Virus record (IMG/VR): IMGVR_UViG_3300046791_000336
Span: 1-54,797 of that record
Strand: one strand, 5' to 3'
Origin: a virus
Length of the DNA: 54,797 bases
The translations under genes were made by a program, and so were the position numbers. Below, in pieces: positions 1,144-27,114 of this stretch. Below the pieces are notes generated by a model. That model was not told the DNA's origin. It worked only from the letters and a program-made list of their open reading frames with translations, and did not search any database. Position 1 is the stretch's first letter, and each line of letters begins with the position of its first letter.

Positions 1144-1144
1144 C

Positions 1145-1182
1145 GAATCGACCGCTCAGCATATTCCCAGCAATTTAAAGCA
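1145..1182 (+). promoter_or_regulatory. Leaderless late promoter of the portal gene
   Basis: GAATCGACC occupies -38 to -30 of the portal ATG. TCGACC is exactly at -35 to -30; after a 17-base spacer CAATTT lies at -12 to -7, with the A at -11 and T at -7 seen in all copies. The predicted transcription start is the A of the ATG, so the mRNA should lack a leader. No Shine-Dalgarno sequence is needed or obvious. Confidence 0.75.
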
Positions 1183-2661
1183 ATGGGAAAGCGTGGCAAT
1201 CCGAACTGGCGTAAGGGCGGAGAGAGCCCCAATCCAACTGGCAAGAAGCAAGAGCGCCGAGACGGCTGGAGCAACAGTGCCACCGGGCACGGCACCAGCC
1301 TGGACCGTCGCCGCCTGACGCGGTACGGCATTGATGTCGTTACTGACCTCGAGGCGCGCCAACTGTGGCGGTCCGAGTGGCTGTGTAGGCGCATCATCGA
1401 GGTACTGCCAGGTGAGGCAAATCGCCGCGGCTGGGACCTCAAGTGCGATGACAAAGACCTGGTCGAGCGCGTAGAGGCTCGAGCAGAAGAGCTTGACCTA
1501 GACGGCGCCATGACACGGGCTGCCGAGTACGAGCGCGCATACGGCGGGGCTGCGATCCTACCCGTGGTGAGCGGCGCGCTGGGCACGTTGGCACAGCCAC
1601 TCGAGGATGACGCGACCATCGTAAGCGTTGACGCACTGCATGTGCTTGAGCCGTGTGAGCTCACGCCCACCGCGTACCACACGGACCTCTCGTCCCCCAA
1701 GTTCGGCAAGCCTGAGAAGTACCGGTTTATGGCTCAGGGCTCAGGGCGATCGGGGTATCTCCCCATGCAGGAGATCCACGAGTCTCGGCTCATCATCTTC
1801 CCCGGTCGCCGCGTCTCGAGGCAGACACAGCCGGGACAGCGCGAGGGCTGGGGTGATTCCGAACTGAACCAGGCGCGCTCTGCGATCGCAGACGTGGGAC
1901 TCACCTGGGGCTCGGTGGCGACGCTACTCCACGAGTTCGGCCAGGGTGTCTACGAGATAAAGGGGCTGTCCGACATGATGGCGCAGAAGGACGGTCCCGA
2001 GCAGTTACAGCGGCGCATGGATGCAATGGACTTCTTCAAGTCAACTATGCGCGCCACGGCCATCGACGCCGAGGATAGCTACACGCGGATGGATACACCT
2101 GCATCGGGGCTCGACGGCCTACTCATGCAGCAAGCGCAGTGGATATCCGCGATCGCCGACATGCCGATCGAGGTGCTGTTCGGGCGTGAGCCAGCTGGGT
2201 TATCCGCCACTGGCGAGATGACCGTGCGTAACTGGTACGCCAAGGTGGAGAAGGTTGACGCCACCCATTACGCACCGCGTAGAGAACAGATTGTCAAGCT
2301 GCTGATTCTCGAGGATGGCGGCAAGGAGCCCGAGCTGTGGAGCGTCGAGTCAAAGCCGCTGTGGACGCCGAGCGAGGCAGAGGTTGCCAACACCAGGTTG
2401 GTTGACGCACAACGCGCCGCGATTCTGATTGACAAGGGCATCGCGAGCGCAGACGACATCGCAGAATCGTTCTACGGCGGGGATACCTACTCGCCAGAAA
2501 TCAGCATCGACTGGGCTGCTCGAGAAGAGCAGAAGAAGATTGACGAGGAACAGGCCACTGCAATGCAGGAAGCCACCCTAGAGGCGATGAACAAGCCAGC
2601 GGTGGATCCGAATGCGCCTCAAGCCGATGAGCCGCCGGCGCCAGCTCGGGGGCCAAAGTGA
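1183..2661 (+). CDS. Portal protein (DUF1073 / Phage_portal_3 type)
   Basis: 492 residues, usual size for the family. It forms the dodecameric ring at one head vertex through which DNA passes and to which the tail joins. The recognisable signature is the segment with MPIEVLFGREPAGLSATGEM followed by RNWY, typical of DUF1073 portals; the SEWLCRRIIEVLP helix in the N-terminal third also fits. The first 45 residues are basic and low complexity. The start is the ATG placed exactly at the +1 of the leaderless promoter. The gene ends in a GTGA overlap with the collagen-like gene. Confidence 0.9.
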   Translation: MGKRGNPNWRKGGESPNPTGKKQERRDGWSNSATGHGTSLDRRRLTRYGIDVVTDLEARQLWRSEWLCRRIIEVLPGEANRRGWDLKCDDKDLVERVEARAEELDLDGAMTRAAEYERAYGGAAILPVVSGALGTLAQPLEDDATIVSVDALHVLEPCELTPTAYHTDLSSPKFGKPEKYRFMAQGSGRSGYLPMQEIHESRLIIFPGRRVSRQTQPGQREGWGDSELNQARSAIADVGLTWGSVATLLHEFGQGVYEIKGLSDMMAQKDGPEQLQRRMDAMDFFKSTMRATAIDAEDSYTRMDTPASGLDGLLMQQAQWISAIADMPIEVLFGREPAGLSATGEMTVRNWYAKVEKVDATHYAPRREQIVKLLILEDGGKEPELWSVESKPLWTPSEAEVANTRLVDAQRAAILIDKGIASADDIAESFYGGDTYSPEISIDWAAREEQKKIDEEQATAMQEATLEAMNKPAVDPNAPQADEPPAPARGPK

Positions 2662-4247
2662 AACTACGCCGCACAACATCCGACCCCCGCCTGGCAGGCT
2701 CATCGGTCAAGAAGCCGCTTGACATGCCGCTTCTGATTTACGTGGACGGCGACGACGTAGAGTGGCTGTTCAAACACAACGGTGGAGATCAATACGACTG
2801 GGAGCCTGTCAACGTCATTGGCGCGACGGGCGACACTGGCGACACCGGCGGCGACGGTGATCAGGGCGACGACGGCGGACAGGGGATACCTGGTCCGACT
2901 GGACCACAGGGCCCTATCGGTGCAACTGGTGCGCAGGGACCGCAGGGGCTGACCGGTGAGACGGGGCCACAAGGTGAACAAGGGCCGCCAGGCGCCGACG
3001 GGGTGGACGGAGAGGATGGGGCCGACGGATCCACTGGTCCTCAGGGCATACAGGGTATTCCAGGTGCCGACGGTGCCGATGGATCAGACGGTGCCGATGG
3101 CGACACCGGACCACAAGGCGAACAGGGGATACAGGGCGCGACGGGACCACAGGGGATACAGGGATTGACCGGGCCCCAGGGTGCGCAGGGCATCCAGGGG
3201 GAAACCGGCGCGACTGGCGCGACCGGTGCCCAGGGCATTCAGGGCGTACCTGGTGCAGATGGTCTCGATGGCGAGGATGGCGCGGACGGCGCTACCGGAG
3301 CGCAGGGAATACAGGGCATCCAGGGCATCCAGGGGCCAGCTGGTAACACGGGCGCGGACGGAGCAGCAGGCGCAGCAGGCGCCACAGGACCGACCGGACC
3401 CGCCCCATCGGGCACAGGATTCGTCAAGGTCATCTCTGGCGTTCTCCAGGTGCCGAGCGCTGCGATCGCCCAGGCCGACGTTACGAGCCTGGTGTCGGAC
3501 CTGGCAGCAAAAGCGGCAAGCTCGAGCCTGGCCACAGTAGCCACGAGTGGAAGTGCATCGGACCTCGGCACTGGCACGCTACCGATTGCGCGAATCGCGG
3601 CTGGAGCGGTCACGCTAGCTAAGCTAGCTAACGTTGGCGCAGCCAGCATCCTTGGCAGCGTTGCCGGCGGCACACCAGCCGAGCTTACAGGCACGCAGGT
3701 CACAACGCTGCTTGACGTTCGCACTGAGACGCTCAAGGGGTTGATGCCAGCCAACATGGGGCGCAAGGCGTCCCTGGCGACGAACAAGAGCATCGCGAAC
3801 ACGCTTACGCAGGTCGTTGGCTTCACCGCTGCGGCGAACACGCTAGCCGTCGGCACCACGATCCGGTTCCGTGGGATGGGGCTGCTCACCAACACGACAT
3901 CGGCGAGCACGAGTGTGCTCACGCTGCGCATCAACAGCGCCTCGCTTGGCTCCACCATCGAGGCGTCGTGGTCGGTGGCGCTTGGCACAACCGCCCGCAC
4001 CAATTGCCCGTTCATCGTTGAGGGCGAACTGATCGTTATCTCCACGGGCGCAGGCGGTACGGCATGGGGCGTCATCGTGGTCACCGTGAACACCACCACC
4101 GCGATCGCAGTGCCGACATCGATGATCACTGGAGCGGTTACCTGCATCACCACGCAGAGCAACGTGGTGGAGCTTACGTGTGTCAGCGGCGCGGCATCAA
4201 CGACGTGGAACTTCATCTCCGCGACGATTGAGGTTGTGAATCCGTGA
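2658..4247 (+). CDS. Collagen-like fibre protein
   Basis: 529 residues, GTG start overlapping the portal stop. Residues 1-54 form a globular N-terminus; residues about 55-248 are an uninterrupted collagen-type Gly-X-Y tract rich in GPQ, GIQ, GAT and GAD triplets; the rest is an Ala/Thr/Ser-rich region and a beta-rich C-terminal domain from about residue 355. Such proteins trimerise into stiff fibres on virions. Its place between portal and MuF-like genes suggests a head or neck fibre rather than a tail fibre. The glycosyltransferase three genes downstream could modify the repeat, as glycosylated collagens are known elsewhere, but this is inference. Confidence 0.85.
2820..3401 (+). repeat. Gly-X-Y collagen repeat coding tract
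   Basis: About 194 codons with glycine at every third position. At DNA level there are many imperfect direct repeats of the 9-18 base unit around cagggcatccaggg, which may recombine and change the length of the tract. The opposite strand is open across part of this region only because of the repeat composition. Confidence 0.9.
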
Positions 4248-5521
4248 GCATCGCCGCACTCGTCGCCATGCACAGGCGCATGGGCACGGATACCCGTAGG
4301 CGTAAGGCGCCCAAGGCGCGGTTCCCCACGCTCGTGGAGTCGGATTACGCGAAGCAACTGGTCGAAGGTGTCAAGGCATGGCGCGCGGCGATACGTCCGC
4401 TACTGGACGAGCTACCGGCGCTCATGGCTGGTGCCGAGTCCCGTATGCGAGCGGACGATATCGTGTCTGGAAAGCGCGCCAGGGTGCTGATTGACAAAGC
4501 CCGGTACACGGTAACCGCGACGTCGCGCAATCGCGTTGAGCTCATCGCTCAGCGTGTGGCATTGCGCACCGCTGCACACAACAAAGACGAGATGGTTGCC
4601 CAGGCCAAGGCGGCACTCGGCATCGACATCCCGATCAACGACCGCAGGATCGCCGGCATGGCGGAGTCATTCGCACACGAGAACACCGTGCTCGTCGAGA
4701 AACAGGGGCAGAAAACCCTTGACGAGGTAGAGAAACTCATCACCAAGGCGTTTGCGCGAGGTACGCCGGTTGAGGAACTGAACGCCGAGATCGCCGGCAT
4801 GTTCGCTACAGCCGAGAACAACATGCGGTGGTTCGCTCGTGACCAGGTCGCCAAGTTCAACGCGTCCGTTGCCGAGGTGAGGCGCGAGGACTTGGGGCTA
4901 AAGAAGTTCGAATGGGTGACGATGAACGACCGCTACGTGCGGCATACGCATCGCGAGAGGAACCGCAAGGTCTACCCCTACAGCGGAGCAGGTGCGCCGC
5001 CTTACATGCCTGGCGAGGAGTTCGCCTGTCGCTGTGTACCGCGTCCAATCTTCGACGAGATCCGTGTCAAGGCGCAGGAAGGCACGGCCGCGAACCGCTT
5101 TCGCCTGGCGCTACCGCCCAGGTCCAAGGCGAGCGAGCGAGGCTATCGTGGAGACGTCGCTGGGATGCGCGTAGTGATTGCTGGTGGTCCGCGTAGCGGC
5201 AAGACAACGCTAGCTGCCACGATGGGTGAAGCCAAGCACACCGACGACATCATCGATCTTGGGTGGTCAGAGGCGAGCTCGGCCGCGATGACATGGTTCG
5301 ATGCGCCCGGACCATGGGTCATCGAGGGCGTGGCGACTGCTCGCGCGCTGCGTAAGTGGCTCGATGCCAATCCACAGGGCAAGCCGTGTGACGTGGTGTT
5401 CTGGATGCCAGTCCCACACGTCATGCTAGCCAAGGGACAGTCAACCATGCTCAAGGGCTGCGAGGCTGTGTGGCGTCAGGTTGAGCCTGAACTCGTCAAG
5501 AGAGGGGTGGAGATTCGATGA
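4244..5521 (+). CDS. MuF/SPP1 gp7-like head morphogenesis protein fused to a P-loop kinase-like domain
   Basis: 425 residues, GTG start in a GTGA overlap. Residues about 180-275 are a MuF/SPP1 gp7-type domain, shown by the FEWVTMNDRYVRHTH segment and the Cys-rich end motif FACRCVP. These minor capsid proteins enter the procapsid with the portal. From about residue 308 a second domain begins: VVIAGGPRSGKTT is a textbook Walker A loop with GxxxxGKT after a hydrophobic strand, and VVFWMPVPH is a plausible later strand, as in nucleotide or adenylate kinase folds. The fusion is unusual. Ends in ATGA with the next gene. Confidence 0.8.
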   Translation: MSIAALVAMHRRMGTDTRRRKAPKARFPTLVESDYAKQLVEGVKAWRAAIRPLLDELPALMAGAESRMRADDIVSGKRARVLIDKARYTVTATSRNRVELIAQRVALRTAAHNKDEMVAQAKAALGIDIPINDRRIAGMAESFAHENTVLVEKQGQKTLDEVEKLITKAFARGTPVEELNAEIAGMFATAENNMRWFARDQVAKFNASVAEVRREDLGLKKFEWVTMNDRYVRHTHRERNRKVYPYSGAGAPPYMPGEEFACRCVPRPIFDEIRVKAQEGTAANRFRLALPPRSKASERGYRGDVAGMRVVIAGGPRSGKTTLAATMGEAKHTDDIIDLGWSEASSAAMTWFDAPGPWVIEGVATARALRKWLDANPQGKPCDVVFWMPVPHVMLAKGQSTMLKGCEAVWRQVEPELVKRGVEIR

Positions 5522-6087
5522 TTGACATCCCGGCACTCAATGCCCGCATGTGCGAAATCGCGCTCGAGCGTCTGGAGACCATGGGCGAGGAAGGTGGTGG
5601 GCTGTTCAACTACTACTCTCACCTGGCGCGACGCGGGACGATGCTGCGCGCAGAGGAGATTGCGGTCGCCGAGTACATCGATCGCACGGTCATCAAGGGG
5701 ACTCCAATCATGGAACTGTGCGCTGGGGCTGCGCAGTTGAGTCACTTGCTGGATCGGATGGATCACCCAACGTATGCGGTGGAGATTGACAAGCGTAGAC
5801 ATGCGTTCGCCGTTGCCTTGGGCAAGCGTCTCGGCAGTTGCTGCAATGTCATCCTTGACAGTTGGCAGAACATAGAGTTGTCCAAATACGGTCTTTTGGT
5901 CACATTGAATGCAGCCACCACCCACATCTTCCCAGACGACTCCAGGTGGCTCATCGAGTACGCCAAAGGCGGCGGCGAGTTCATCATCCGTCCGCGTCAG
6001 TTCGGCAAGGCTGGCATACCGGTAGAGATTCCAGGGCTACAGTCGACTAAGGTGTTCGAGGATGTCTACCATTACCGATGTCTGTAG
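5518..6087 (+). CDS. Putative SAM-dependent methyltransferase-like protein
   Basis: 189 residues, ATG overlapping the MuF stop. The segment IMELCAGAAQLSHLL resembles methyltransferase motif I (E/DxCxGxG) and YAVEIDKRR the acidic motif II strand that binds the SAM ribose; both lie about residues 62-92. A target-recognition or NPPY-type catalytic motif is not seen, so nucleic acid is not an obvious substrate. With the deacetylase-like and glycosyltransferase genes next door, a sugar or protein substrate is possible. Small for a methyltransferase; the Rossmann call is moderate. Overlaps the next gene by 26 bases. Confidence 0.55.
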   Translation: MIDIPALNARMCEIALERLETMGEEGGGLFNYYSHLARRGTMLRAEEIAVAEYIDRTVIKGTPIMELCAGAAQLSHLLDRMDHPTYAVEIDKRRHAFAVALGKRLGSCCNVILDSWQNIELSKYGLLVTLNAATTHIFPDDSRWLIEYAKGGGEFIIRPRQFGKAGIPVEIPGLQSTKVFEDVYHYRCL

Positions 6088-7090
6088 CCGCCGCGGTATC
6101 ACGCGTGTGGTCCACTGCCACGCCGACCATTTCGAGCCCGAGGGCGTTGCCAAAGAGCTAGGCGCATCGGCAGACGTAGCCCTGTGGCTTGAGCGCTGTA
6201 AGCCGGCCGTGCCCACGCTATTCGTGAAGTGCCCGATCGGGTTTCACCTGGACAGGGATTGGCTGCTCGGCATGCGCCTGTACACGGGTAGCACGTCAGT
6301 GATCGAGGCCGATTATCTGGGTGAGCTCGTGGAACTCGGCGTTGGCATCGGTCTCCACGTTCATCACGAGGCGTGGACGTACAACACGCTTACCAAGCTG
6401 TCCCCGGGACAGCGCGAGCTACACGACTACGTTGTGGCGGAGAACGATCCCAAGATGGACCACGCTCGCATGGTTGCGATGGTCAAGACGTCACTGTCCT
6501 GGCTACGCGATGCGACCGGGCTGCCGCTCGAGACCTGGGGCTTTGTTCACGGCTGCTGGGCGTTCGGCGCGAGCGATCCTGAGATATGCCAACTCGAGAC
6601 CGAGATACCGTTGCTCTACAGCCTTGGCTGTCGTGGAGACTTCTCGTTCCCCGCCGGGCGTCGATACTGCGACCCGACATGGGATAGACCCAAGTGGGTG
6701 CGCCCTGTCGAGGGTAGGCGCGCCTATGAGTTGCCCAGGGCTAGGGTGCGTGACAGGCACATCGACGGCCGCATGCTCGTATGGGCTAGCCGCTGTGATG
6801 ACTGGTGGCTCGGACTGGACACCTACTCGCGAGACTCGCGCAAGCTTACCGAGTCGCCTGACAAGCTCGAGCGCTATCTCGAGATGTGCCCCGTGATCGA
6901 CGGGACCGCTTACATCAAGACCTGCGGTCACGGGATGAACGCTTACTACTGGCAGGGCGAACCTGTGTCCACGGTTGGAGCGTTCGCGGCAGACCTGGCA
7001 GAGAAGTGCGCAGCGGCTGGGGTACCGGTTGAGTTCCTGACCACGGATCAGGTCACGCAGGAACTCATCGCCTCGCGGCCAGCCGCCTGA
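6062..7090 (+). CDS. Putative polysaccharide deacetylase-like (NodB-fold) protein
   Basis: 342 residues. A metal-site-like HADHFEP motif sits near the N-terminus (about residue 20), followed by GIGLHVHHE (about 98-106) and FVHGCWAFGA in the middle, the spacing of His/Asp seen in polysaccharide deacetylase-like proteins of surface-glycan clusters. It would act on a glycan, but no substrate can be read. The ATG lies inside the preceding methyltransferase-like gene (26-base overlap). The 3' end overlaps convergently with the minus-strand glycosyltransferase by 26 bases. An alternative is an unrelated metal hydrolase; the fold call is by eye. Confidence 0.5.
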   Translation: MSTITDVCSRRGITRVVHCHADHFEPEGVAKELGASADVALWLERCKPAVPTLFVKCPIGFHLDRDWLLGMRLYTGSTSVIEADYLGELVELGVGIGLHVHHEAWTYNTLTKLSPGQRELHDYVVAENDPKMDHARMVAMVKTSLSWLRDATGLPLETWGFVHGCWAFGASDPEICQLETEIPLLYSLGCRGDFSFPAGRRYCDPTWDRPKWVRPVEGRRAYELPRARVRDRHIDGRMLVWASRCDDWWLGLDTYSRDSRKLTESPDKLERYLEMCPVIDGTAYIKTCGHGMNAYYWQGEPVSTVGAFAADLAEKCAAAGVPVEFLTTDQVTQELIASRPAA

Positions 7091-8036
7091 CCTCGGCTCG
7101 GTAGGCTACGCGGTCGATCCGCTCCTGGCGCCTGGTCTCGCGCGTATCGATCTTCTGCACATACGGAGGTGGGGCGCGGCCTATCGCCGCATCGAACGCG
7201 TCACCCCATGCCGGCGCTACGTGCGCCCAGGTTCGCTTCTTGAGCATGTCGAGGGCGTTCTGGCTGCCAGCCCAGCGCACGTACTCGAGGTTCTCGCGGC
7301 ACCACTGGAACGCCTGGGCGAATGCCTCTGGGGTGCGCTCTACGACCAGCCCGTTGTCACCATGGCGAACGAGATCGGGCACGATGCCGACGTCAGTGGT
7401 CACCGGAAAACAACCACAGGCCATGCCTTCGATGAGTGGCCGGGGGTCTCCCTCTGCTGTCGAGGCACACGCGATGACGTCTAGGCCGTTGTAGAAGTCT
7501 GGCATCTCCTCCTGTGTTAGGCAGCGGTCAGCCATGCGCAGGTCTGGCGCTGCGGTGGTGAGGATGCCCACGTTCTTATCGGTCGCCGTTGCCGCACCGG
7601 CCCAACCGATCGTCAGGTCGCCGCCGCGCATGTCGTAGTCGCCGAATGTCTCGGGGTGAAACCCCTTGGGACAGAGCGCGACGAACGGTGCCTCGGCTAG
7701 CTCGGTGTGGAGCCGCACCGATGGCACCAGCACGCCCCCGGTCTTTTGCAGGTGTCCGCGTATCAGTTTCTCGGCTGACATCTGCCCGTAGCGCTCTTGG
7801 TGGTTCCAACGGTGACTCGACACCTGTTTTACGACACGCCTGCCGAACCGCTTGTGCAGCAATCCCTTCCACCAGAAATCAACCACCAGGTCAGCGTCCT
7901 TGATGTTGACTCGGTGAGTGCTGTCTGTGTGGCTAACCCTAAACTCGAACCGGTGGGATAGGTGCTTGACAAGCGCCTGGGCGGTTAAGTCGTAGGACCA
8001 GCCCTTTAGATACGGAACCAGCCAGACACGATTCAC
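7065..8036 (-). CDS. Glycosyltransferase, GT-B fold (GT4-like)
   Basis: 323 residues from the GTG at 8036; GTG at 8042 and ATG at 8039 are also in frame, but 8036 is exactly the +1 of the upstream leaderless promoter. The C-terminal half has LTIGWAGA and EGDPRPLIEGMACGCFPV, the donor-sugar site of GT4 enzymes with the E-x7-E pattern and the Gly-rich turn after it. It probably transfers a nucleotide-activated sugar to a cell-surface or virion acceptor. It is the only minus-strand gene in the structural block, yet carries the same promoter class as the late genes. Candidate cargo (moron) gene. Confidence 0.8.
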   Translation of the reverse strand: MNRVWLVPYLKGWSYDLTAQALVKHLSHRFEFRVSHTDSTHRVNIKDADLVVDFWWKGLLHKRFGRRVVKQVSSHRWNHQERYGQMSAEKLIRGHLQKTGGVLVPSVRLHTELAEAPFVALCPKGFHPETFGDYDMRGGDLTIGWAGAATATDKNVGILTTAAPDLRMADRCLTQEEMPDFYNGLDVIACASTAEGDPRPLIEGMACGCFPVTTDVGIVPDLVRHGDNGLVVERTPEAFAQAFQWCRENLEYVRWAGSQNALDMLKKRTWAHVAPAWGDAFDAAIGRAPPPYVQKIDTRETRRQERIDRVAYRAEVRRLAARR

Positions 8037-8074
8037 CATCACAATGTGCTCTGCGTAGCACGTGCGGTCGATTC
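8037..8074 (-). promoter_or_regulatory. Leaderless promoter of the glycosyltransferase gene
   Basis: On the minus strand GAATCGACCGCA begins 38 bases before the GTG at 8036. TCGACC is at -35 to -30, A at -11 and T at -7, as in the plus-strand copies. The inverted copy with identical geometry argues that the motif is a promoter and not a coding coincidence. Confidence 0.72.
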
Positions 8075-8080
8075 CAGTTG

Positions 8081-8118
8081 AAATCGACCAATCCGGTGTG
8101 CCGGCTGACCCTTAATGG
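8081..8118 (+). promoter_or_regulatory. Leaderless late promoter of the protease gene
   Basis: AAATCGACCAAT begins 38 bases before the GTG at 8119, with TCGACC at -35 to -30, A at -11 and T at -7 (GACCCT). It is back to back with the minus-strand promoter; only six bases (8075-8080) separate the two conserved nine-base elements, so one bound factor could serve both. Confidence 0.75.
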
Positions 8119-9201
8119 GTGCTGCAAATCCGATTCGACCGCGGCCCGCTAAACCGCCCTACGCGTCTGGCGAATACCTTTGTTGTAGAAGGTTACGCCG
8201 CTAGGACGCATAGTTCTAGCGACCCGCTCCGCTACGACCACGGCGACGAATACCGTGATGCGGCTGAGCTAAAGCGCATTGCTGACCAGCTGTCTGGACT
8301 GCCCGTAACCCTCTCGCATCCGCCTGGGATGCTTAAGAACGGGGCCAAGGGCCGGATTGTCGGTCGTGTTGACTCTGCGTGGGTGGACGGGGACAAGGCT
8401 GGAGTCCGGCTATCGATTACAGACAGCGCAGCGGCCAAGGATATAGAGGCCGGAACCAAGGAGCTGTCTCTCGGATACACGGTCCGGGTAGACGAGCGTG
8501 GCTACCAACGGGATAGCCAGGCAGACCATTTGGCAATCGTCTCTACGGCGCGCTGTGGGGCGACTTGCTCTCTGCGGACCGACGACTCGGCAGCGGGTTC
8601 GTGCGGGTGTGCCAGTCAAATCGACCAATCAAATAGGCCAACGGAAACTTTCCGTATGCCTGATGCAACTGACAAGGACCGCGCCGACGAATTGAGCGGC
8701 GAGAATAAGCAACTCAAAGCTCGAGTCACCGAGCTTGAGGGCCTTATCGCTGCTGGCGCGCAAGCTGCCGAGAGCGACAAGGTTAAAGCCGAGAAGGAGC
8801 GCGCAGACGCGGCCGAGGCGAAGGTCTCTCGTTTCGACGAGACCTTCCTCGGCGCGGTCCGCGCACGCACCAAGCTCGAGCGTGAAGCCGGCACGGTGAT
8901 GGGTCCCGAGTTCCGCATGGACGACATGACGGAGCGACAGATTCACGAGGGCGTTGTGAAGCGCCTCGATGCAAGCACCGATGTCAAGGCTGCCAATGAT
9001 GCCGAGTTGAAAGGCCAGTACACGGCCCTCATCTCGCTCTCGGCCAAGAACACCGAAAGCCAAAAGCGTGTCGCCGAGATTATCGGTCGCACTGCCCAGG
9101 ACACCCGTAAGGACGACTCCCCGTCCTACGAGGAAATCGAAAACAACCGCTGGAAGAAGACTCTCAGCAAGGGCCGCGACGCTGCGGCGGAAGGCCGATA
9201 G
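8119..9201 (+). CDS. Prohead protease (DUF2213) with C-terminal scaffold
   Basis: 360 residues from a GTG placed at the promoter +1; TAA lies just upstream in this frame. Residues 1-150 match DUF2213 capsid maturation proteases: LSGLPVTLSHPP with the candidate active-site His, a strand like AGVRLSITDSAAAKDI, and the KELSLGYT motif. Residues from about 180 form a charged, Glu/Lys-rich coiled coil typical of scaffold. The arrangement resembles lambda C/Nu3, where scaffold is the in-frame C-terminal part of the protease gene. It assembles inside the procapsid and is later cleaved. Confidence 0.85.
   Translation: MLQIRFDRGPLNRPTRLANTFVVEGYAARTHSSSDPLRYDHGDEYRDAAELKRIADQLSGLPVTLSHPPGMLKNGAKGRIVGRVDSAWVDGDKAGVRLSITDSAAAKDIEAGTKELSLGYTVRVDERGYQRDSQADHLAIVSTARCGATCSLRTDDSAAGSCGCASQIDQSNRPTETFRMPDATDKDRADELSGENKQLKARVTELEGLIAAGAQAAESDKVKAEKERADAAEAKVSRFDETFLGAVRARTKLEREAGTVMGPEFRMDDMTERQIHEGVVKRLDASTDVKAANDAELKGQYTALISLSAKNTESQKRVAEIIGRTAQDTRKDDSPSYEEIENNRWKKTLSKGRDAAAEGR
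8618..8655 (+). promoter_or_regulatory. Internal leaderless promoter for the nested scaffold
   Basis: AAATCGACCAAT inside the protease gene begins 38 bases before an in-frame ATG at 8656; TCGACC at -35 to -30, GAAACT at -12 to -7 with A at -11 and T at -7. The exact match to the intergenic copies, within coding sequence, supports a separate transcript for the scaffold part. Confidence 0.7.
8656..9201 (+). CDS. Nested scaffold protein (in-frame C-terminal product of the protease gene)
   Basis: 181 residues, same frame and stop as the protease gene. It starts MPDATDKDRADELSG and continues with heptad-rich helix (ENKQLKARVTELEGL), the expected character of an internal scaffolding protein that is needed in excess over protease. 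The start is chosen because the ATG sits exactly at the +1 of the internal promoter. Independent expression is inference; the overlap with the protease is seen directly. Confidence 0.7.
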   Translation: MPDATDKDRADELSGENKQLKARVTELEGLIAAGAQAAESDKVKAEKERADAAEAKVSRFDETFLGAVRARTKLEREAGTVMGPEFRMDDMTERQIHEGVVKRLDASTDVKAANDAELKGQYTALISLSAKNTESQKRVAEIIGRTAQDTRKDDSPSYEEIENNRWKKTLSKGRDAAAEGR

Positions 9202-9203
9202 CC

Positions 9204-9767
9204 ATGCCACAGACCGTAGTCAACAGTGCGCCACCGATTGGCACCCCCGGCGACCTCGCCGACCTCCACACCGCGACGGATGGCGACATCCTCTCGGCGT
9301 CAAACTCCGAAGCAGCCGACCCCATCGTCGTTGGGACGATGGTCAAGCGCGGTACGGCCGAGGGTCTTGCCCTCAAGCTGTCCGACAGCCACGACACGCC
9401 ATTCGGCATCGTAACTCGCTCGCACTATGCGACCCCGTCTGACCTCGAGACACTCGAAGTCGACACCGACGTATTCTTCGACGCGCTCAACCCAGATGTG
9501 ATGATGGGTATCGGCCGCACCGGTCGCTACTACGTCCTCATCGAAGAGAACGTCGACTTCGACGACGACGTCCATGTCCGCGCGGAAGCGTCGACGGGCG
9601 AGGTTGCCGGCGCGTTTGGCGCGAGCGACCAGGGCAACGACACGATCAACTGCTCGGCATTCTGCCGCTACTGCGGCGACTACGACGTCGACGGCGACAC
9701 CGGATTCGGCGTTGCAGTTGTGGAAATCAACATGGGACTCGCCTCCCTCGCAGTGACGGATTCGTAA
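9204..9767 (+). CDS. Capsid decoration / structural cement protein
   Basis: 187 residues, ATG two bases after the protease stop. It is Asp/Ala-rich and beta-predicted, with the GTMVKRGTAEGLALKLSD and PFGIVTR segments seen in head-stabilising cement proteins located between protease and major capsid genes. It probably sits on the capsid surface, though membership is judged from position and general look. A good Shine-Dalgarno for the next gene (AAGGAG) follows its stop. Confidence 0.65.
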   Translation: MPQTVVNSAPPIGTPGDLADLHTATDGDILSASNSEAADPIVVGTMVKRGTAEGLALKLSDSHDTPFGIVTRSHYATPSDLETLEVDTDVFFDALNPDVMMGIGRTGRYYVLIEENVDFDDDVHVRAEASTGEVAGAFGASDQGNDTINCSAFCRYCGDYDVDGDTGFGVAVVEINMGLASLAVTDS

Positions 9768-9781
9768 GGAGCAATTGAGTC

Positions 9782-10732: not shown

Positions 10733-10738
10733 TTGTAA

Positions 10739-10773
10739 ATCGGCGCCGTCTGGGAAGAAGTGCCATCGGCGCC
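10739..10773. repeat. Pair of ATCGGCGCC repeats after the capsid gene
   Basis: ATCGGCGCC occurs at 10739-10747 and 10765-10773. The GGCGCC core is self-complementary, so the two copies can also pair as a hairpin with an 18-base gap. There is no T-run, so a classical terminator is not supported; processing or attenuation is possible. Confidence 0.35.
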
Positions 10774-10789
10774 CTACCGTGAGGTTCCG

Positions 10790-11116: not shown

Positions 11117-11118
11117 CC

Positions 11119-11861: not shown

Positions 11862-11869
11862 AGTGACCA

Positions 11870-13577: not shown

Positions 13578-13582
13578 GTCCA

Positions 13583-13620
13583 AAATCGACCGCATACCAA
13601 TCCAGCCTGACGCTTAGCGC
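13583..13620 (+). promoter_or_regulatory. Leaderless late promoter of the tail tube gene
   Basis: AAATCGACCGCA begins 38 bases before the ATG at 13621; TCGACC at -35 to -30, GACGCT at -12 to -7. Directly downstream of a terminator, as expected for an independent promoter. Very similar to the copy at 17676, including GACGCTTAG around -10. Confidence 0.78.
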
Positions 13621-15135
13621 ATGGCTGAATCAAATGCCGAGGGCCTGAACATTGCCGCGGTCGAAGAGACCGAACAGGGCGACTCTCCGCCGCCGACTAC
13701 TGGCTGGCTGAACCTTGAGGCAGACGCCGTCGGCGATCCGGGACCGCAATACAAGAAGATGGCGCGATCGCCATTCACGATCACGCGCCAGTTGCGCCGA
13801 CCGTTCATCTCCGGTCTTGACGTCGCGCTGACGCTCGACCTGGACGCCATCAAGGATCACGTCGACTTCTTCGGTGAGGCGATGTTCAAGAGTGTGTTCT
13901 TGCACTCTGGCGGCAACGACCAGTCCATGTTCCGTCCGACCGACGTTACCGCGACTGGCTACACGGTCGCCACCAACGGCGACTTCCCCGATGGCACGCT
14001 CGTTGTGGCTCGTGGCTTCCCAGACGCCGAGAACAACGGACTAAAGGTTCTCGCTGGCACGTCAACCGCTACCGAGATCAAGACGTCTGGTCTGGTTGTC
14101 GACGCGGCTCCGCCGAGCAACGTCCAACTCGAGGTTGCGGGCTTTCAGTTCGCAGCGGGCGACTTGGAGCTTGACTCCGACGGCAACCTGACGACGACTA
14201 CCAAGGCGTTTACGGATCTCGGTCTCCAGGTTCATCAGTTCGTTTACCTGCCCAGCCCAACCGAGGTTGACCCGCCGCACTGCTTTGATACAGACGCGTA
14301 TCACGGCTTTGCCGAGATCCTCGAGATCGCCACGAACAAGTTGACGCTGCGCCGGCGCGGCTGGACCCCGGGAATGGCCGACGACGGCGGCGACAACACG
14401 ATCCGCCTGTTCTTCACCAAGTGGATCCGCGACGTGGCACGCAACCACGAGGACGAGAAGCTGGTCTCGCACGCGTTCGAGGTTACTTATTCGGACCTCG
14501 CAGCCGGCCCAGCGGATGCGTACGAATATCTGCTGGGCTACATGCTCGATCAGGTCACGTTCAACATGCCCGCCGAGGCCAAGGTCTCGATGCAGTGCAC
14601 GTTTGTCGGCACATCGGCAAGCGATCCGAGCACGAGCCGTGAGGATGGACCCGAGGATGCGATCAACGTGGTCACGTCTCTCGCTGTCTCGACCAGCTCG
14701 GACGTCACCAGGCTCTCGGTCGATAACGTGGACGAGTCCGGTCTGATGACGGACTTTCAGGATCTGAAGATCATGCTCAAGAACAACATTGCCGGTAAGA
14801 AGGCGGTTGGTGTCCTGGGTAACCGGTTCACTCCGCTCGGCGTGTTTGAGGCGCAGACCGAGGCACAGGTGTACTTCACGGACCCCGAGATCGTGACCTG
14901 CGTACACGACAACCGGATCCTGCGGCTCGCAGCTGGCATGCGTAACGACGACTTCGGCATGCTGCTGGACATCCCGAGCATGGGCGCCATGGAAGCCCCC
15001 AAGACGATCGCACACAACGAGCTGGTGACCATCGCCTCCAAGATGGCCGGCTTCATGGACGCGCTCAGTGGCTTCACCGCTGGCATGTCCGTGTTCGCGT
15101 ATCTGCCGACGATTGCCCCGGGGACTGAGACCTAG
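13621..15135 (+). CDS. Major tail tube protein (Phage_tube_2-like)
   Basis: 504 residues. The opening AAVEETEQG, then TGWLNLEADAV and FTITRQLRRPFISGLDV, and the paired FEVTYSDLA / VSMQCTFVG segments fit the long tube proteins of the Phage_tube_2 type. It polymerises into the hollow tail; its abundance fits a promoter of its own. An internal domain around residues 95-240 looks like an added beta domain. No sheath gene lies beside it, supporting a non-contractile tail. Stop and next start overlap by one base. Confidence 0.75.
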   Translation: MAESNAEGLNIAAVEETEQGDSPPPTTGWLNLEADAVGDPGPQYKKMARSPFTITRQLRRPFISGLDVALTLDLDAIKDHVDFFGEAMFKSVFLHSGGNDQSMFRPTDVTATGYTVATNGDFPDGTLVVARGFPDAENNGLKVLAGTSTATEIKTSGLVVDAAPPSNVQLEVAGFQFAAGDLELDSDGNLTTTTKAFTDLGLQVHQFVYLPSPTEVDPPHCFDTDAYHGFAEILEIATNKLTLRRRGWTPGMADDGGDNTIRLFFTKWIRDVARNHEDEKLVSHAFEVTYSDLAAGPADAYEYLLGYMLDQVTFNMPAEAKVSMQCTFVGTSASDPSTSREDGPEDAINVVTSLAVSTSSDVTRLSVDNVDESGLMTDFQDLKIMLKNNIAGKKAVGVLGNRFTPLGVFEAQTEAQVYFTDPEIVTCVHDNRILRLAAGMRNDDFGMLLDIPSMGAMEAPKTIAHNELVTIASKMAGFMDALSGFTAGMSVFAYLPTIAPGTET

Positions 15136-15551: not shown

Positions 15552-15943
15552 CGGCCCGGCTCGACTGGGAGGACCAGGCGGCTCACGTCAGACGGTCGAT
15601 CGAGTTGGGTAAGAAGAAGCGCCGGCCACCGACCGCGGACCAGGTAGCGCTTCTTGCGCGCGAGCCCAAGCTTGACATCGGCGAGGTAACCCTCGCGTAC
15701 GCCTACGCTGCGTTGTCTACGTGTCGCCAGGGAGGCATGGGACTGAGTCCTATCCCGATGACGGCTGTGTGGCAGTGGGAGGACCGCAACGGGATAACAG
15801 ATCCTGTGTTGCGCCGGCACTTTGAAGGCGTCATCTCCGCGATTGACTCGATTACGCTGCAAAGGGCGAATCGACCACAGGCAAAGCAAGAGGCACCATC
15901 TAAGAGTGAGCACCCGAAGATGGGTGGAAGGCGGCGAGCATGA
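15548..15943 (+). CDS. Tail assembly chaperone, -1 frame extension (GT-like)
   Basis: Beginning at the slip site the -1 frame encodes ITARLDWEDQAAHVRRSI and runs 131 residues to a TGA overlapping the tape measure ATG. The fusion with the short form would be 269 residues. The segment lacks a sensible own start near its beginning; an ATG-like start at 15605 would remove conserved-looking sequence. The C-terminus is basic (GGRRRA). Analogous to lambda T, which binds the tape measure. Confidence 0.7.
   Translation: MTARLDWEDQAAHVRRSIELGKKKRRPPTADQVALLAREPKLDIGEVTLAYAYAALSTCRQGGMGLSPIPMTAVWQWEDRNGITDPVLRRHFEGVISAIDSITLQRANRPQAKQEAPSKSEHPKMGGRRRA
15868..15905 (+). promoter_or_regulatory. Candidate late promoter before the tape measure gene
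   Basis: GAATCGACCACA inside the chaperone extension has TCGACC at -35 and CACCAT at -12 to -7 relative to 15906, fitting the consensus including A at -11 and T at -7. A GTG stands at 15906, but its frame closes after 31 codons, so the likely target is the tape measure ATG at 15940 with a 34-base leader containing GGAAGG. Weaker than the other copies because the geometry to a real gene differs. Confidence 0.4.
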
Positions 15944-17676
15944 GCGATTTCAATTTCACCATTACCGCAGCAGCCGAACAGGCCAATCGCGCGATCGATG
16001 AGGTTGAGAAGGGGCTTGGCGGTATTAAAAGACAGGCCGATGAAACCACCAAGGGTATCTCTGGTCTTGGCAAGGGTATCCAGGGCGCATTCGCAGCTGC
16101 CGGCGGTATAGCGCTGATTCATCAGCTCGCTGAAATCGACGACGAATTCACCAACCTGTCTAACCATGCGCTCAAGTTCGTAGATGCCGGTCACGATGTA
16201 TCGCAGATCCTAGAAGAGCAAACAACGCTCGCTCACGAACTACACATGGGACTAGAGACGACGCTGAACGCGTACGACGCGGTTCGTGATGCAACCGACG
16301 AGATGAACCTGACGCACGGTCAGCAGATCCGGTTGACGCAATCACTCGGGGAGGCCGCGACGCTCAGCGGTAAGTCTGTCGAGGGTATGGCCGACGCTAT
16401 GCACGGGCTTAAGGTCGCGATGGAAACTGGGCAGGATCCGGCACGCGTCATCCGCGGTCTCATGAAGGAGTACCCGGACCTTGCGGAGACCTGGCGCATC
16501 GCACTCGGTAAGACGAACAAAGAGATCATCGATCTCGCCGACAAGGGGCAGCTCAGCTTTGAACGGTTGACCGATGCGCTTATCGCGCCAGGCGATGCAC
16601 TTGATAAGCTAGATAAGCAATTCGCGCTGCGCAAGGTCACGTGGTCCCAGCAGTGGGCCGAACTCAAGCACGATCTCGAGCAGCCGATCGATTGGCAGGG
16701 CACGATCGACAACATGTACAATGTTGACCGGGCAATCCTTAAGGTCGTTCACGACCTTGAGACTCAGCGCGAGTTGCTAGAGAAGCTAAACACGGCAGGT
16801 CGCACCGACATTACCGCCTCGTATACGCCCACCCGCATCGAGGTGCCGATTAAGAAAACGTCAGACGCAACCAGGGTAGCCAAGGAAGAGCTTTCCGAAT
16901 ACGAGAAGGTTCTTGCCGCTGCGCTAGAGACTGAGCGCAAGGCGATTAACGAATACAACCTGCTCTCGCAAGCGCTTATGAATCACCCCGAACTGTACCG
17001 ACAGATCAGCGTAGAGCTCGGCAAACGACGAGACATCCTGCTCGAGCTGGGATTACTCGAGGCGAAGAGCGTCACCAATGGGTTTGCGGCCCCGGTCAAC
17101 GACACGGCTGGGATTGATACCGAAAAGCTCCTCGCACAGCAGCAGGCGGTTGTCCTGTGGACCGATACCGCCGCAGGCAAGACCGCAAAGTGGAACGAAG
17201 AGCTTGAGAAGAACAAGAAGACCACCGAGGCGTGGGCCGCAGGACTCGGGTCCATCGCGGCCGAGTTTGTGAACATGGCAGAAACCGGCGACATCTCACT
17301 GGAGAAGCTAGGCTCCTCCCTTGCCAAGCTCGCCCTCCAAATCGCCGCGATGCAGATCGGCGGACCGTGGGGCGCGCTCCTGGGCTCGTTCGCCGGTAGC
17401 GTCAGCCTGCCTGGCCACGCCACAGGCGGTCAGTTCATGGTTGGCGGCTCAGGCGGGACAGACTCCAACCTCGTGGCCTTCCGGGCCAGCGCCAACGAGC
17501 GGGTGACCGTAGAGACCCCGGCACAGGTCCAGGCTGGCGCGTTCGGCGGGGGCGGGACGAGCGTGACCGTGGTCGCCCAGAACAACGAGCGCGACGTAAT
17601 CGCCGCCAGTGGCACTTACGCGGCTCAGCGGGTGTTCGTCCAGAATCAGCGCCGTTTCCGCCAGCGTAACCGCTGA
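15940..17676 (+). CDS. Tape measure protein
   Basis: 578 residues, ATG overlapping the chaperone stop. The first 240 residues form the tape-measure domain seen in many siphophages: helical, with SLGEAATLSGKSVEGMADAM, and DKGQLSFERLTDALI. Hydrophobic Ala/Gly segments (GLGSIAAEFVNMAE, GAFGGGGTSVTVV) and long charged helices follow. Its length sets tail length; at roughly 1.5 angstrom per residue about 85-90 nm is expected, short to medium for a siphophage. It ends where the next leaderless promoter begins. Confidence 0.85.
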   Translation: MSDFNFTITAAAEQANRAIDEVEKGLGGIKRQADETTKGISGLGKGIQGAFAAAGGIALIHQLAEIDDEFTNLSNHALKFVDAGHDVSQILEEQTTLAHELHMGLETTLNAYDAVRDATDEMNLTHGQQIRLTQSLGEAATLSGKSVEGMADAMHGLKVAMETGQDPARVIRGLMKEYPDLAETWRIALGKTNKEIIDLADKGQLSFERLTDALIAPGDALDKLDKQFALRKVTWSQQWAELKHDLEQPIDWQGTIDNMYNVDRAILKVVHDLETQRELLEKLNTAGRTDITASYTPTRIEVPIKKTSDATRVAKEELSEYEKVLAAALETERKAINEYNLLSQALMNHPELYRQISVELGKRRDILLELGLLEAKSVTNGFAAPVNDTAGIDTEKLLAQQQAVVLWTDTAAGKTAKWNEELEKNKKTTEAWAAGLGSIAAEFVNMAETGDISLEKLGSSLAKLALQIAAMQIGGPWGALLGSFAGSVSLPGHATGGQFMVGGSGGTDSNLVAFRASANERVTVETPAQVQAGAFGGGGTSVTVVAQNNERDVIAASGTYAAQRVFVQNQRRFRQRNR

Positions 17677-17713
17677 AATCGACCGCATCGCCTGACGGCG
17701 GGACGCTTAGGGC
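17676..17713 (+). promoter_or_regulatory. Leaderless late promoter of the signal-peptide fibre gene
   Basis: AAATCGACCGCA begins 38 bases before the ATG at 17714, its first A being the last base of the tape measure stop; TCGACC at -35 to -30, GGACGCTTAG across -10 with A at -11 and T at -7. No Shine-Dalgarno is seen before the ATG. Confidence 0.78.
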
Positions 17714-19660
17714 ATGAGACGACCCTTAGTGGCTCTGGTCATGGGGATCATGATCGGGCTGGCCATAGTGGCGATTCCGTCATCGGCGCAGCCTGTCCTC
17801 AGCGGCGGGCTACGGCTACCGTCCGGGTGCTCCACCAACGATCTGCCAAAGTGGACCGGATCGACGTGGGCGTGCTCGGGCGGCCCCGCTGTCACGGGTA
17901 GCGGCTCGAGCGGCAGGTCTACCAGGTGGGCGAGCTCGAGTTCGATCGGTAACGGCGCCTGGACCGACGACGGGACCAACGCCACGTCACAAGGCACGGT
18001 CACGTCGACCGGCGCGTTCACGACCGGCACCTCTTCATCGCTCGTCGGCGCCACGATCTGGGGCCCGTCATCGGTTCGCAACCTCGCCAGCACCGGCATC
18101 CCGACATCACTAGCAGGCGGGGCGGCGGGAACGTTCTACGTGGTCTCGCCATCCGGTAACTACGGGATCGTTTCAGCGCGCGCGACCAACGACGCCAACG
18201 GTGCACACATCGCTCTCTACAAGACGAGATCAACGGACGCGTCCGTCAAGACCGCGGTCGTCAACGCGGACACGATCGGCGGCCTAGACTTCCAGGCCGC
18301 GAGCGATTCGTCGACAGTGGTCTCGCCGTCATCGCTCTATGCGGTTGTCGATGGCGCCGTGTCGGCCGGCGTTGTTCCGACGTCGCTTCGGTTGTTCACC
18401 GGCTCCACGTCGCCGATCCTCGCGCTGAATCTCGACTCGTCGCAGAACGCAACCTTCTACGCGGCAGTGACGGCGACCGGTCTCCTCACTGCAACGGCTG
18501 GCGGAACGACCCCAGCGAACTGGACCACAACCGGAACCGGCGACCTGGTTTCCGCCGATGACCTTACCGTCGGCGACGACGCTACGATCACGGACACGCT
18601 TTCGTGTACCGGAGACTTCGCAGTCAACACGAACAAATTCAACGTGACCGCGTCGAGCGGCAACACCACGGTCGCCGGCACGCTCGCATCAACCGGCGCG
18701 ATCACTGACGGCGGCAATCGTGTGTTCTCCGTAGCTGGAGCTGGACTCACGAGCACGACGAGCTCAGTCGATGTTGTAGCCGCATCTGGCGGAGGTCTCG
18801 TAGTCAACGCGAACGACGTCGGCATGATCACCACATGCAACACGGGCGAGCGGCTCGCGTACGAGGGCGGCTCGTGGGTGTGCCGTCAGATCCAGAACGA
18901 CTACAGCGCCAAGCATTACGAATGGAACGACGAGTACACGATGCTGAACTGCGCCAACACTGGGCAGTGCGGCAGCTTCTTCACTGCTCGCGTGTCGGGC
19001 GCGAGCGCTGCATGCACCGGCATCGGCATCGTGGCCAACAGCAACCGGCCCGGAATGATGGAGTTCCTAACCGGATCTACCAATACCGGGTTGGCCGCAC
19101 TTACGACCGTTGCCAACATGCTCGACTTCGCCGCCACTACGTCGGTGTCATTCGAGGCGACGGTAGGGTGGCCGACTCTGTCCACATCCGGCGAGGGATA
19201 CGCGAGCGTCGTTGGATTCGCTGATTCGTTCAACCTGATCGACTTCGCCGACGGCTGCTACTTCCTCTACGACGAGCGAAACGCGGCGGCTACCGGGTCG
19301 AACACCAGCAACCTGAACAAGCTCTCGTGCTGGTGTGCGAAGGGCAGCAACCGAACCAAGTTCTTGATGGACGGTTCAACCGTCAGCGATGGTTCGTTCA
19401 CCACAGTTGATGCACCGGTCGCCGCTGCGGTGCTGCCGGACACGAACATGTACCGGCTCAAGATCACGTTCGACGGTACGACCGCGAAGTTCTATCGCAA
19501 CGGCGTCGACAGCTGCCACATCACGACTAACGTTCCAAACTCGAGCGCTTACACGGGCGTTCAGCTCAACATGCTCAAGTCGGTCGGCGGCACGACCAGG
19601 AGTATGTATCTCGATCAGACGCGCATCGTGCTCGACTACAGCGCAGTGAGGTCACCGTAA
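17714..19660 (+). CDS. Tail fibre-like protein with N-terminal signal peptide
   Basis: 648 residues. Residues 1-26 look like a Sec signal peptide: MRRP, then a hydrophobic core (LVALVMGIMIGLAIVAI) and an SSAQP cleavage-like site. Next comes CSTNDLPKWTGSTWACSG, a Trp-rich Cys-flanked repeat seen in surface fibres, then a long Ser/Thr/Gly beta-repeat region, and from about residue 390 a jelly-roll-like C-terminal domain with several Cys pairs. A signal peptide on a virion fibre is odd: it may be an exported cell-surface protein rather than a structural one. It has its own promoter. Confidence 0.7.
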   Translation: MRRPLVALVMGIMIGLAIVAIPSSAQPVLSGGLRLPSGCSTNDLPKWTGSTWACSGGPAVTGSGSSGRSTRWASSSSIGNGAWTDDGTNATSQGTVTSTGAFTTGTSSSLVGATIWGPSSVRNLASTGIPTSLAGGAAGTFYVVSPSGNYGIVSARATNDANGAHIALYKTRSTDASVKTAVVNADTIGGLDFQAASDSSTVVSPSSLYAVVDGAVSAGVVPTSLRLFTGSTSPILALNLDSSQNATFYAAVTATGLLTATAGGTTPANWTTTGTGDLVSADDLTVGDDATITDTLSCTGDFAVNTNKFNVTASSGNTTVAGTLASTGAITDGGNRVFSVAGAGLTSTTSSVDVVAASGGGLVVNANDVGMITTCNTGERLAYEGGSWVCRQIQNDYSAKHYEWNDEYTMLNCANTGQCGSFFTARVSGASAACTGIGIVANSNRPGMMEFLTGSTNTGLAALTTVANMLDFAATTSVSFEATVGWPTLSTSGEGYASVVGFADSFNLIDFADGCYFLYDERNAAATGSNTSNLNKLSCWCAKGSNRTKFLMDGSTVSDGSFTTVDAPVAAAVLPDTNMYRLKITFDGTTAKFYRNGVDSCHITTNVPNSSAYTGVQLNMLKSVGGTTRSMYLDQTRIVLDYSAVRSP

Positions 19661-20494
19661 GTGTCCGCTGGCTGGGCAAAGAACGAGGTCACCGCGGTCA
19701 AGCGACGCTGTGGGCTCATCATCCTTAAGAACGATGGCGCGATGTCCCCGCGCGAGACCAACTTCTCGGGGCTCGCCATCATCTGCGGCGTCAACTCGCC
19801 GCACTTCGATACAGCGCTCGGAACGATTACGAACCAGCGCAAGCCGCTCAACGTACCCGGCTACCCAGCGCTCACTGGCGGACTGATTACCAGCGTTGAC
19901 GATGACGATGACACTGTGGAGATCGCTGGCCACGGGTTCGAGATCGGCGACGGACCGGTCCAACTGACAACCGGATTCCCGATTCCGGCCGGCACTGCGA
20001 CGCTCACCGACTATTGGGTGGTTCCAGTTGACGTCGACAATTTCAAATTCGCGCTGTCTGTCGCCGATGCCTATGCGGGCATCGTAGTTGACATCACTGA
20101 CCTGACCGATGGCGGCATGGTTGAGGTCATTACCGGGGCGCAGCGCGGAGTAGACGGTCACTTTGTCTATGAGGCAACCCAGGCAGAGACCAACCACGAT
20201 GCGGCAGAGACCATCGTGTGCATCGACACGGCCCTTTACGAGCGAGACCTCGGCGGCGGCGCATACACCACCGTCTTGATGTCAACCAGCTTCGTAGACT
20301 TCGGCGAAGCAGAGCTCGAAAACGGATTAACACGCGACGACGCCTGGCGCGTCATCCTGCGGTCATTGGCCGCAGTCTTTAGCAAAAGCGGCAATGACTA
20401 CGTGTTCCGAGATATGGCTGATTCTAAGGACAGCCATCACGGAACCGTTACGAGTGCCGGGCGCGTTGACGCCGAGGTGGATGACCCAACATGA
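19661..20494 (+). CDS. Tail-associated protein, unknown
   Basis: 277 residues, GTG start directly after the previous stop. The C-terminal third (VFSKSGNDYVFRDMADSKDSHHG) and an acidic beta region in the middle (DDDDDTVEIAGHGFEIGDGP) can be seen; the latter resembles small beta domains found in fibre proteins. It lies between fibre and tailspike genes, so it may be an adaptor. No family recognised. ATGA overlap with the tailspike gene. Confidence 0.55.
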   Translation: MSAGWAKNEVTAVKRRCGLIILKNDGAMSPRETNFSGLAIICGVNSPHFDTALGTITNQRKPLNVPGYPALTGGLITSVDDDDDTVEIAGHGFEIGDGPVQLTTGFPIPAGTATLTDYWVVPVDVDNFKFALSVADAYAGIVVDITDLTDGGMVEVITGAQRGVDGHFVYEATQAETNHDAAETIVCIDTALYERDLGGGAYTTVLMSTSFVDFGEAELENGLTRDDAWRVILRSLAAVFSKSGNDYVFRDMADSKDSHHGTVTSAGRVDAEVDDPT

Positions 20495-22248: not shown

Positions 22249-22250
22249 CC

Positions 22251-26812: not shown

Positions 26813-26836
26813 GCGCTCCTGGGGTAGCGGTTGGCC

Positions 26837-26874
26837 AAATCGACCAATCCACATGTCGGGGCGAGGCTGTGTAT
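26837..26874 (+). promoter_or_regulatory. Leaderless late promoter of the lysis/lipoprotein operon
   Basis: AAATCGACCAAT begins 38 bases before the GTG at 26875; TCGACC at -35 to -30, GAGGCT at -12 to -7 with A at -11 and T at -7. It selects this GTG over the one two codons upstream at 26869 and heads a run of tightly coupled small genes. Confidence 0.72.
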
Positions 26875-27114
26875 GTGACCCGGGTAGCCATCTTAGCCGC
26901 CCTAGCCGGCTGTACGGTAACGCACGCGCTCCGCCGCCCGCATGAGCCGACCCCTGTCGCGGCCATGCTGGTTGACGCTGCATTAGCGGGCGTTGGCGCG
27001 TGCCTTGGGATGTCCGAGCAGTTTGCTCCATACCCCAACAAAGAGCGCATGGTGCTCGGCTACGGCGTTGCCATGGCGGTCTACCTGCCGCTGTGGGTGG
27101 TGGAGACCAAGTGA
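26875..27114 (+). CDS. Small lipoprotein with C-terminal membrane segment
   Basis: 79 residues from the promoter-defined GTG. VAILAALAGC forms a lipoprotein signal with LAGC lipobox; Cys 13 would be lipidated. A second hydrophobic segment (MVLGYGVAMAVYLPLWVV) lies at the C-terminus. First gene of the presumed lysis operon; it could act in the envelope before or during lysis. GTGA overlap downstream. Confidence 0.65.
   Translation: MTRVAILAALAGCTVTHALRRPHEPTPVAAMLVDAALAGVGACLGMSEQFAPYPNKERMVLGYGVAMAVYLPLWVVETK

Follow-up and report, generated by a model that had tools for sequence, protein, structure and literature searches.

Most middle and late transcripts of the Thermus phage phiYS40 are leaderless according to a review (PMC3594737), and the AR9 paper remarks in general terms that phage transcripts often are (PMC5312081). 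In the Cluster O mycobacteriophage Corndog, the predicted SigA promoters PL1, PR2, and PL2 put +1 at the initial base of the start codon, and PL2 belongs to a leftward gene of the structural operon (PMC4351075); gene 90 of Adephagia carries a leaderless prediction as well (PMC11373665). Since leaderless late mRNAs are known from phiYS40, leaderless late genes in a phage are not a new kind of arrangement, and an earlier note on the DNA studied here, which knew of no described phage with such genes, is countered on this point by the phiYS40, AR9, and Corndog reports. That DNA is the IMG/VR virus record IMGVR_UViG_3300046791_000336, analyzed over its positions 1 to 54,797 (54,797 nucleotides, hereafter the window), and what may be new in it is a family of shared -35 elements, RAATCGACC (R being A or G), fixed to predicted leaderless structural genes. 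No phage with such a family was found among the open-licence papers listed, which is weak evidence of absence. We consider it likely, from the arrangement of the bases, that eight copies of the element are promoters of one late regulon with leaderless mRNAs; near-identical promoters at the start codons seem to turn on the genes with which the phage builds its particles, and a relative appears to keep this arrangement.

The window would resemble phiYS40, whose middle and late genes are mostly leaderless, in that its own late genes are predicted from geometry to be so. The phiYS40 middle and late promoters reportedly have only a -10-like element in common, and that phage is lytic, whereas in the window conservation is highest over a 9-base -35-type element and the phage has an integrase and a repressor-like gene. 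Corndog is similar in that +1 is predicted at the first start-codon base, but its predicted SigA-like promoters lie at a few sites, and PMC4351075, in what it reports of them, describes no shared late-specific -35 family over structural genes. Middle promoters of T4, which combine a MotA box with a sigma-70 -10 (PMC2988021), are alike in having a phage-specific element in place of the -35 while retaining the sigma-70 -10; MotA boxes, as described there, tolerate changes, are centered at -30, and require a good -10, whereas the element here is nearly invariant, centered near -34, and accompanied by a weak -10. In Deinococcus-Thermus, a -10 motif adjoins open reading frames (ORFs) host-wide (PMC12340547), which is a comparable mode of expression in that a -10 box stands at leaderless distance from start codons, although that system is host-wide and -10-driven, as against a strong -35 over a set of phage genes here. 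In Cluster K mycobacteriophages, Start Associated Sequences (SAS/ESAS) occur in close association with the sites of translation initiation, a process in which they have been suggested to play a part (PMC3203893). Like the element here, they are asymmetric short sequences that recur over a phage genome in association with start codons, but the element lies at -38 with promoter geometry, unlike SAS as portrayed in that paper.

The exact element occurs eight times in the window against 1.28 expected from a second-order Markov model (maximum of 4 in 60 simulations), and an ATG or GTG lies exactly 38 bases from the start of the element in all eight. An A at -11 and a T at -7 are likewise found in 8/8 copies; together with ATG/GTG at +38, these have a joint background frequency of 0.0012. 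The earlier note had listed seven such loci, all with correct coordinates, and had omitted the copy at 15868. The copies are as follows, with 'late' taken from gene function only:

1145..1183, plus strand: predicted late promoter of the portal gene; GAATCGACC at 1145-1153, -10 CAATTT at 1171-1176, +1 at the A of ATG 1183
8036..8074, minus strand: predicted late promoter of the glycosyltransferase-like gene; GAATCGACC at 8074-8066, -10 CACATT at 8048-8043, +1 at the G of GTG 8036
8081..8119, plus strand: predicted late promoter of the head maturation protease gene; AAATCGACC at 8081-8089, -10 GACCCT at 8107-8112, +1 at GTG 8119
8618..8656, plus strand: predicted late promoter of the nested scaffold, within the protease gene; AAATCGACC at 8618-8626, -10 GAAACT at 8644-8649, +1 at ATG 8656
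13583..13621, plus strand: predicted late promoter of the tail protein gene; AAATCGACC at 13583-13591, -10 GACGCT at 13609-13614, +1 at ATG 13621
15868..15940, plus strand: eighth copy; GAATCGACC at 15868-15876, -10 CACCAT at 15894-15899, +1 at GTG 15906
17676..17714, plus strand: predicted late promoter of the gene for a 648-amino-acid protein; AAATCGACC at 17676-17684, -10 GACGCT at 17702-17707, +1 at ATG 17714
26837..26875, plus strand: predicted late promoter of the gene for a 79-amino-acid putative lipoprotein; AAATCGACC at 26837-26845, -10 GAGGCT at 26863-26868, +1 at GTG 26875

Scans against PHROGs and Pfam bore out the earlier names of the portal, protease, and glycosyltransferase (Pfam Glyco_trans_1_4, E 2.4e-15) and support a tail protein at 13621, the product of which matches phrog_290, 'minor tail protein'. 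The products of 17714 and 26875 have no family match in these scans; the former has a signal-peptide-like start and the translation of the latter contains a lipobox-like LAGC. 'Scaffold' is the label that the earlier note gave to a nested in-frame frame, and the protease family match spans that frame. Two of the elements stand back to back in 8066-8089 with six bases between them, forming an imperfect palindrome, and from a single intergenic region they point at the minus-strand glycosyltransferase and the plus-strand protease.

Alignment of the eight copies over 400 columns left -11A, -7T, +2T, +3G, and +192 as the only invariant columns besides the selected element, against a mean of 0.06 and a maximum of 3 for random sets of 8 positions. 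In the reverse query, 50 TCGACC were found in the window, and the 8 with A at -11 and T at -7 are exactly the 8 element copies. The element was also the top hit of a de novo search of the window for k-mers at a fixed distance. Allowing up to one mismatch removes the enrichment (30 occurrences, counting the 8 exact copies, against 25.7 expected), and the signal is therefore the exact element together with its geometry. TCGACC takes the -35 position with a 17-bp spacer to the -10 in 8/8 copies, and the sigma-70 geometry that the earlier note had described, with its -11A and -7T, is thus upheld in every copy. The hexamers themselves depart from the sigma-70 consensus (TTGACA/TATAAT), with TCGACC matching at 4/6 positions and the -10 reading (C/G)ANNNT.

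Shine-Dalgarno (SD)-like pairing, defined as predicted pairing to a 16S tail of -6 kcal/mol or lower, precedes 1/8 element starts in the window and 1/5 in the relative G001 (see below), against 22/66 and 29/60 other predicted genes, respectively, these being codon-score gene calls that include some alternative starts of element genes. At random positions, the frequency was 12% in both genomes. As a group, element starts have SD sites no more commonly than random positions, and other genes have them more commonly; ahead of the first genes, SD sites are thus lacking at group level, with exceptions at window 26875 and the G001 scaffold. The placing of the start codon at +1 in the earlier note therefore stands insofar as the predicted +1 falls on ATG/GTG in 8/8 copies with no SD enrichment, and falls short at 15868, where no long gene is opened.

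The relative G001 (IMGVR_UViG_3300044960_000212, 51 kb, from the viral collection) has head genes and an integrase in common with the window, with identities of 78% for the major capsid protein (MCP), 56% for the portal, and 41% for the protease. At the protease site, identity between the two phages is 89% over the element, 29% over the spacer, and 20% over the upstream 40 bases; the corresponding values at the scaffold site are 100%, 12%, and 35%, and those for element and spacer at the portal site are 67% and 41%. Exact RAATCGACC occurs four times in G001, three of these with all features, and 11 of its 104 TCGACC have A at -11 and T at -7, with a gene start exactly at +1 in 5/11 (protease, scaffold, 20484, 28304, and 33564). 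Variants of the element in G001 differ by 1-2 bases, such as AATTCGACC at -38 of the protease orthologue and ATCTCGACC at -38 of 28304, the baseplate-wedge gene. The distance of 38 is thus kept in five G001 genes, with diverged flanks at the protease and scaffold, the portal being the departure. The scaffold starts chosen by the element lie 11 and 12 residues ahead of a conserved ELxGENK block in the two phages. When the de novo search for fixed-distance k-mers was applied to G001, where copies are few, the element was not the top hit.

A 548-amino-acid protein of G001 matches tail sheath proteins (7.6e-81), which indicates a contractile tail and, therefore, that tail modules of two kinds accompany the element. 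A 127-amino-acid protein of G001 matches baseplate wedge proteins (3.6e-32), and two of the three further element genes (20484, 28304, and 33564) belong to this different tail module; 20484 encodes a weakly tail-terminator-like product (phrog_7975, E 0.014), and for 33564 there is only a weak 'hemolysin' match (E 0.044). Similarity left over on the tail side amounts to 70 residues of the window 19661 protein that match the G001 sheath protein, and a weak tape-measure match. The head genes of the two phages are closely related, the tail module after them is contractile in G001 and of another type in the window, and the promoter family is present in both.

Several observations weigh against reading the elements as promoters of leaderless late genes. 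The -10 is weak, with T at -12 in 0/8 window copies, and a generic sigma-70 scan of positions 1-20000, which hold 7 of the 8 elements, lists none of them. The GTG at 15906 opens only 31 codons and no long gene; the tape-measure ATG at 15940 lies 34 bases past it, behind a Shine-Dalgarno-like GGAAGG, and the 15868 copy could accordingly yield a 34-base leader for the tape-measure gene. SD-like pairing is predicted at window 26875 (-7.5 kcal/mol) and at the G001 scaffold (-8.9 kcal/mol). The close relatives found number one, G001, and in it the portal element is degenerate, with ATG at +4 and a distance of 41 instead of 38; the exact copy at 50778 on the minus strand is without T at -7 and without a start codon; and 5 of the 11 sites with TCGACC, A at -11, and T at -7 are not at a convincing gene start. 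Lastly, scans of about 75 reading frames of the window, out of all possible ORFs, with Pfam, PHROGs, or both recognized no sigma factor. One of the five G001 sites without a convincing gene start lies inside the tape-measure gene but on its other strand, with an ATG one base off +1 and a 125-codon frame. In the window, the GTG frame of 31 codons (15906-16001) overlaps the tape-measure start, possibly as a leaderless small ORF or by coincidence.

Some of these observations would fit late promoters or activator sites from which RNA starts vary by several bases, giving many short leaders: the G001 portal ATG is at +4, the long gene of the 15868 copy is 34 bases downstream, and the glycosyltransferase-like gene has an in-frame ATG at -3 (8039). 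However, a long-frame start codon is at +1 in 7/8 window copies and 5/6 gene-associated G001 copies, and a wandering start hardly explains a fixed distance; we regard this alternative as unlikely. Less probable still is a translation-level or RNA-binding element, SAS-like, within a leader at least about 38 bases long. The SAS repeat lies close to the start codon, and part of it may pair with 16S rRNA. An asymmetric sequence that recurs at a constant position ahead of start codons, oriented with the gene, is what such an element would look like, but the remaining invariant bases land on -11A and -7T, SD-like pairing is as rare as at random positions, and SAS are described without promoter geometry, so far as PMC3203893 shows. 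That the sites are operators with no promoter, bound by a repressor or stoperator-like, seems equally remote: the phage looks temperate (integrase and HTH protein) and repeated asymmetric sites (stoperators) are reported in such phages (PMC4351075), yet the element is not palindromic and 8/8 exact copies stand at one start-codon distance, coupled to -11A and -7T. Chance or a recently duplicated segment is the least credible origin and is largely refuted, for although the 13583 and 17676 copies have spacer and -10 bases beyond the element in common, almost no other column is invariant across the 8 copies and the element is kept in G001 despite diverged flanks.

If the elements are promoters of leaderless late genes, a sigma-70-family holoenzyme would make its usual contacts at -11A and -7T, which are core contacts of the -10 box. 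The conserved block at -38 to -30, (A/G)AATCGACC, would replace the canonical -35; sigma region 4 would sit at this block, whose reader may be a sigma factor with an altered or alternative region 4, or else a late activator bound there in the way that MotA takes the place of region 4 in T4 (PMC2988021). Transcription would begin at the start codon's first base, so that the first cistron of each late unit would be leaderless and translated from a 5'-terminal AUG or GUG, and later genes of each unit would use Shine-Dalgarno sites. One further site in the window offers a comparison:

43140..43175, minus strand: early-type promoter (predicted), TTGACC-17-TAAGAT, with ATG 43140 at +1; a single case

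Promoter-like sites number 2 in the stretch around 43140, where 4.9 are expected by chance. A bolder scenario, which we put forward as speculative, is that the late switch works by a near-minimal change of the -35 code, from early-type TTGACC to late TCGACC preceded by AA, with a phage protein (the candidate being cysteine-rich) retargeting the host sigma. All late units would then be leaderless, favoring phage late mRNAs at the ribosome, and the start-codon distance would be kept while the -35 code was swapped between lineages (TCGACC, CTTGTG, and CTTGCG).

No MotA or AsiA family is among the families reported for the roughly 75 window frames. MotA/AsiA-like phage factors diverge fast. A Sigma70_r4 match in G001, for which 34 proteins were scanned and 25 of 41 families listed, was rejected as a sigma factor since it is part of a DUF5131/HNH protein. 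Besides virion genes, the window and G001 have integrase, methyltransferase, and HNH matches in common, as well as a small protein with a 49-residue match and the following protein:

53137..53871, plus strand: candidate regulator, a cysteine-rich (zinc-finger-like) protein encoded upstream of the terminase

Overall identity of the cysteine-rich protein between the two phages is 28%, a scan for its relatives returned G001 alone, and its structure model, built from 2 sequences, is poor (mean predicted local distance difference test score, pLDDT, of 62). Its role as regulator is guessed from where it lies and from its presence in both phages (n = 2).

In the viral collection, a blind scan for the pattern picked out 33 stretches on 31 contigs, three of them in G001 and one in every other contig. 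Searched whole, the other 30 contigs had a single copy in 29 cases and two copies in the remaining one (G002), which were taken as chance, the frames opened being 20 and 13 codons. A 14-base pattern scan gave at least 119 stretches, mostly chance, with G001 among the matches listed. Relatives of the 13621 tail protein were sought in viral contigs and none was found; the portal has relatives in 17 other contigs (31-40% identity), and no aligned copy with up to one mismatch in AATCGACC was present in the 17 stretches fetched. When eight portal relatives were searched over their full length and the pattern was permitted one mismatch, one match was obtained (in G004), which is without T at -7, and one of five integrase relatives (G011-G015) had a one-mismatch match; these single matches were also taken as chance.

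More distant relatives have other sequences near their start codons. In G003, whose identity to the window is 40% for the portal, 38% for the MCP, and 48% for a part of the terminase, TAnnnT ends at -7/-8 ahead of 5/28 predicted genes, against 0.04 expected per offset; these genes, all on the minus strand, are at 432, 10265, 15779 (protease), 18945 (portal), and 22084, and 3/5 have CTTGTG at the -35 place. The five boxes end 6-7 bases ahead of the start codon, a spacing that would suit leaderless transcripts. G004-G006, which are mutually close and do not count as independent, share another repeated promoter-like sequence, TTCTGACG...CTTGCG-N17-TATACTGAGAANN, that stands directly before the ATG of small genes on both strands. 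Among 15 TATACTGA sites in these contigs, mostly ahead of small genes, ATG lies 13 bases past the first T in 12 and CTTGC lies 23 bases before it in 11. This element is apparently a second family of leaderless promoters, judging from its spacing. Across 13 relatives (729 predicted genes), TAnnnT at -7/-8 was found 26 times against about 2.7 expected, with 14/26 coming from G004-G006 and 4/13 relatives without any.

The window encodes portal, head morphogenesis, protease, major capsid, and tail proteins, together with a serine integrase, an exonuclease, Sak4-like, Mom-like, and HTH repressor-like proteins, and a dUTPase (PHROGs and Pfam matches), and it looks like a temperate tailed-phage genome. 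Since it both starts and ends within the large terminase gene, the genome is probably close to complete and circularly permuted; a terminal repeat was looked for in the window and none was found. The terminase lies in two parts (1-185 and 54295-54797), with TGA 177-179 closing the first and an ATG at 176, in another frame, opening the second, such that it overlaps the end of the first; the break may be a split gene, a frameshift, or an assembly error. No relatives were found among genome contigs in two scans, by the MCP and then by portal alignment, and the nearest named phage and plasmid proteins to the window proteins indicate several different directions. The Sak4-like protein (37406-38452, minus strand) resembles proteins of Myxococcus phages Mx8/Mx9 (53-55% identity) and of an Alicyclobacillus phage (54%), with 69-77% of its length covered, which is a host clue only.

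Collectively, these findings suggest a gene set that keeps its promoters through exchange of the tail module and a natural case of -35 recognition apparently coupled to leaderless initiation. A sequence rule of this kind would name phage late transcription units and their start codons without experiment and, if the factor is phage-encoded, the system would be a new way of redirecting the host polymerase.

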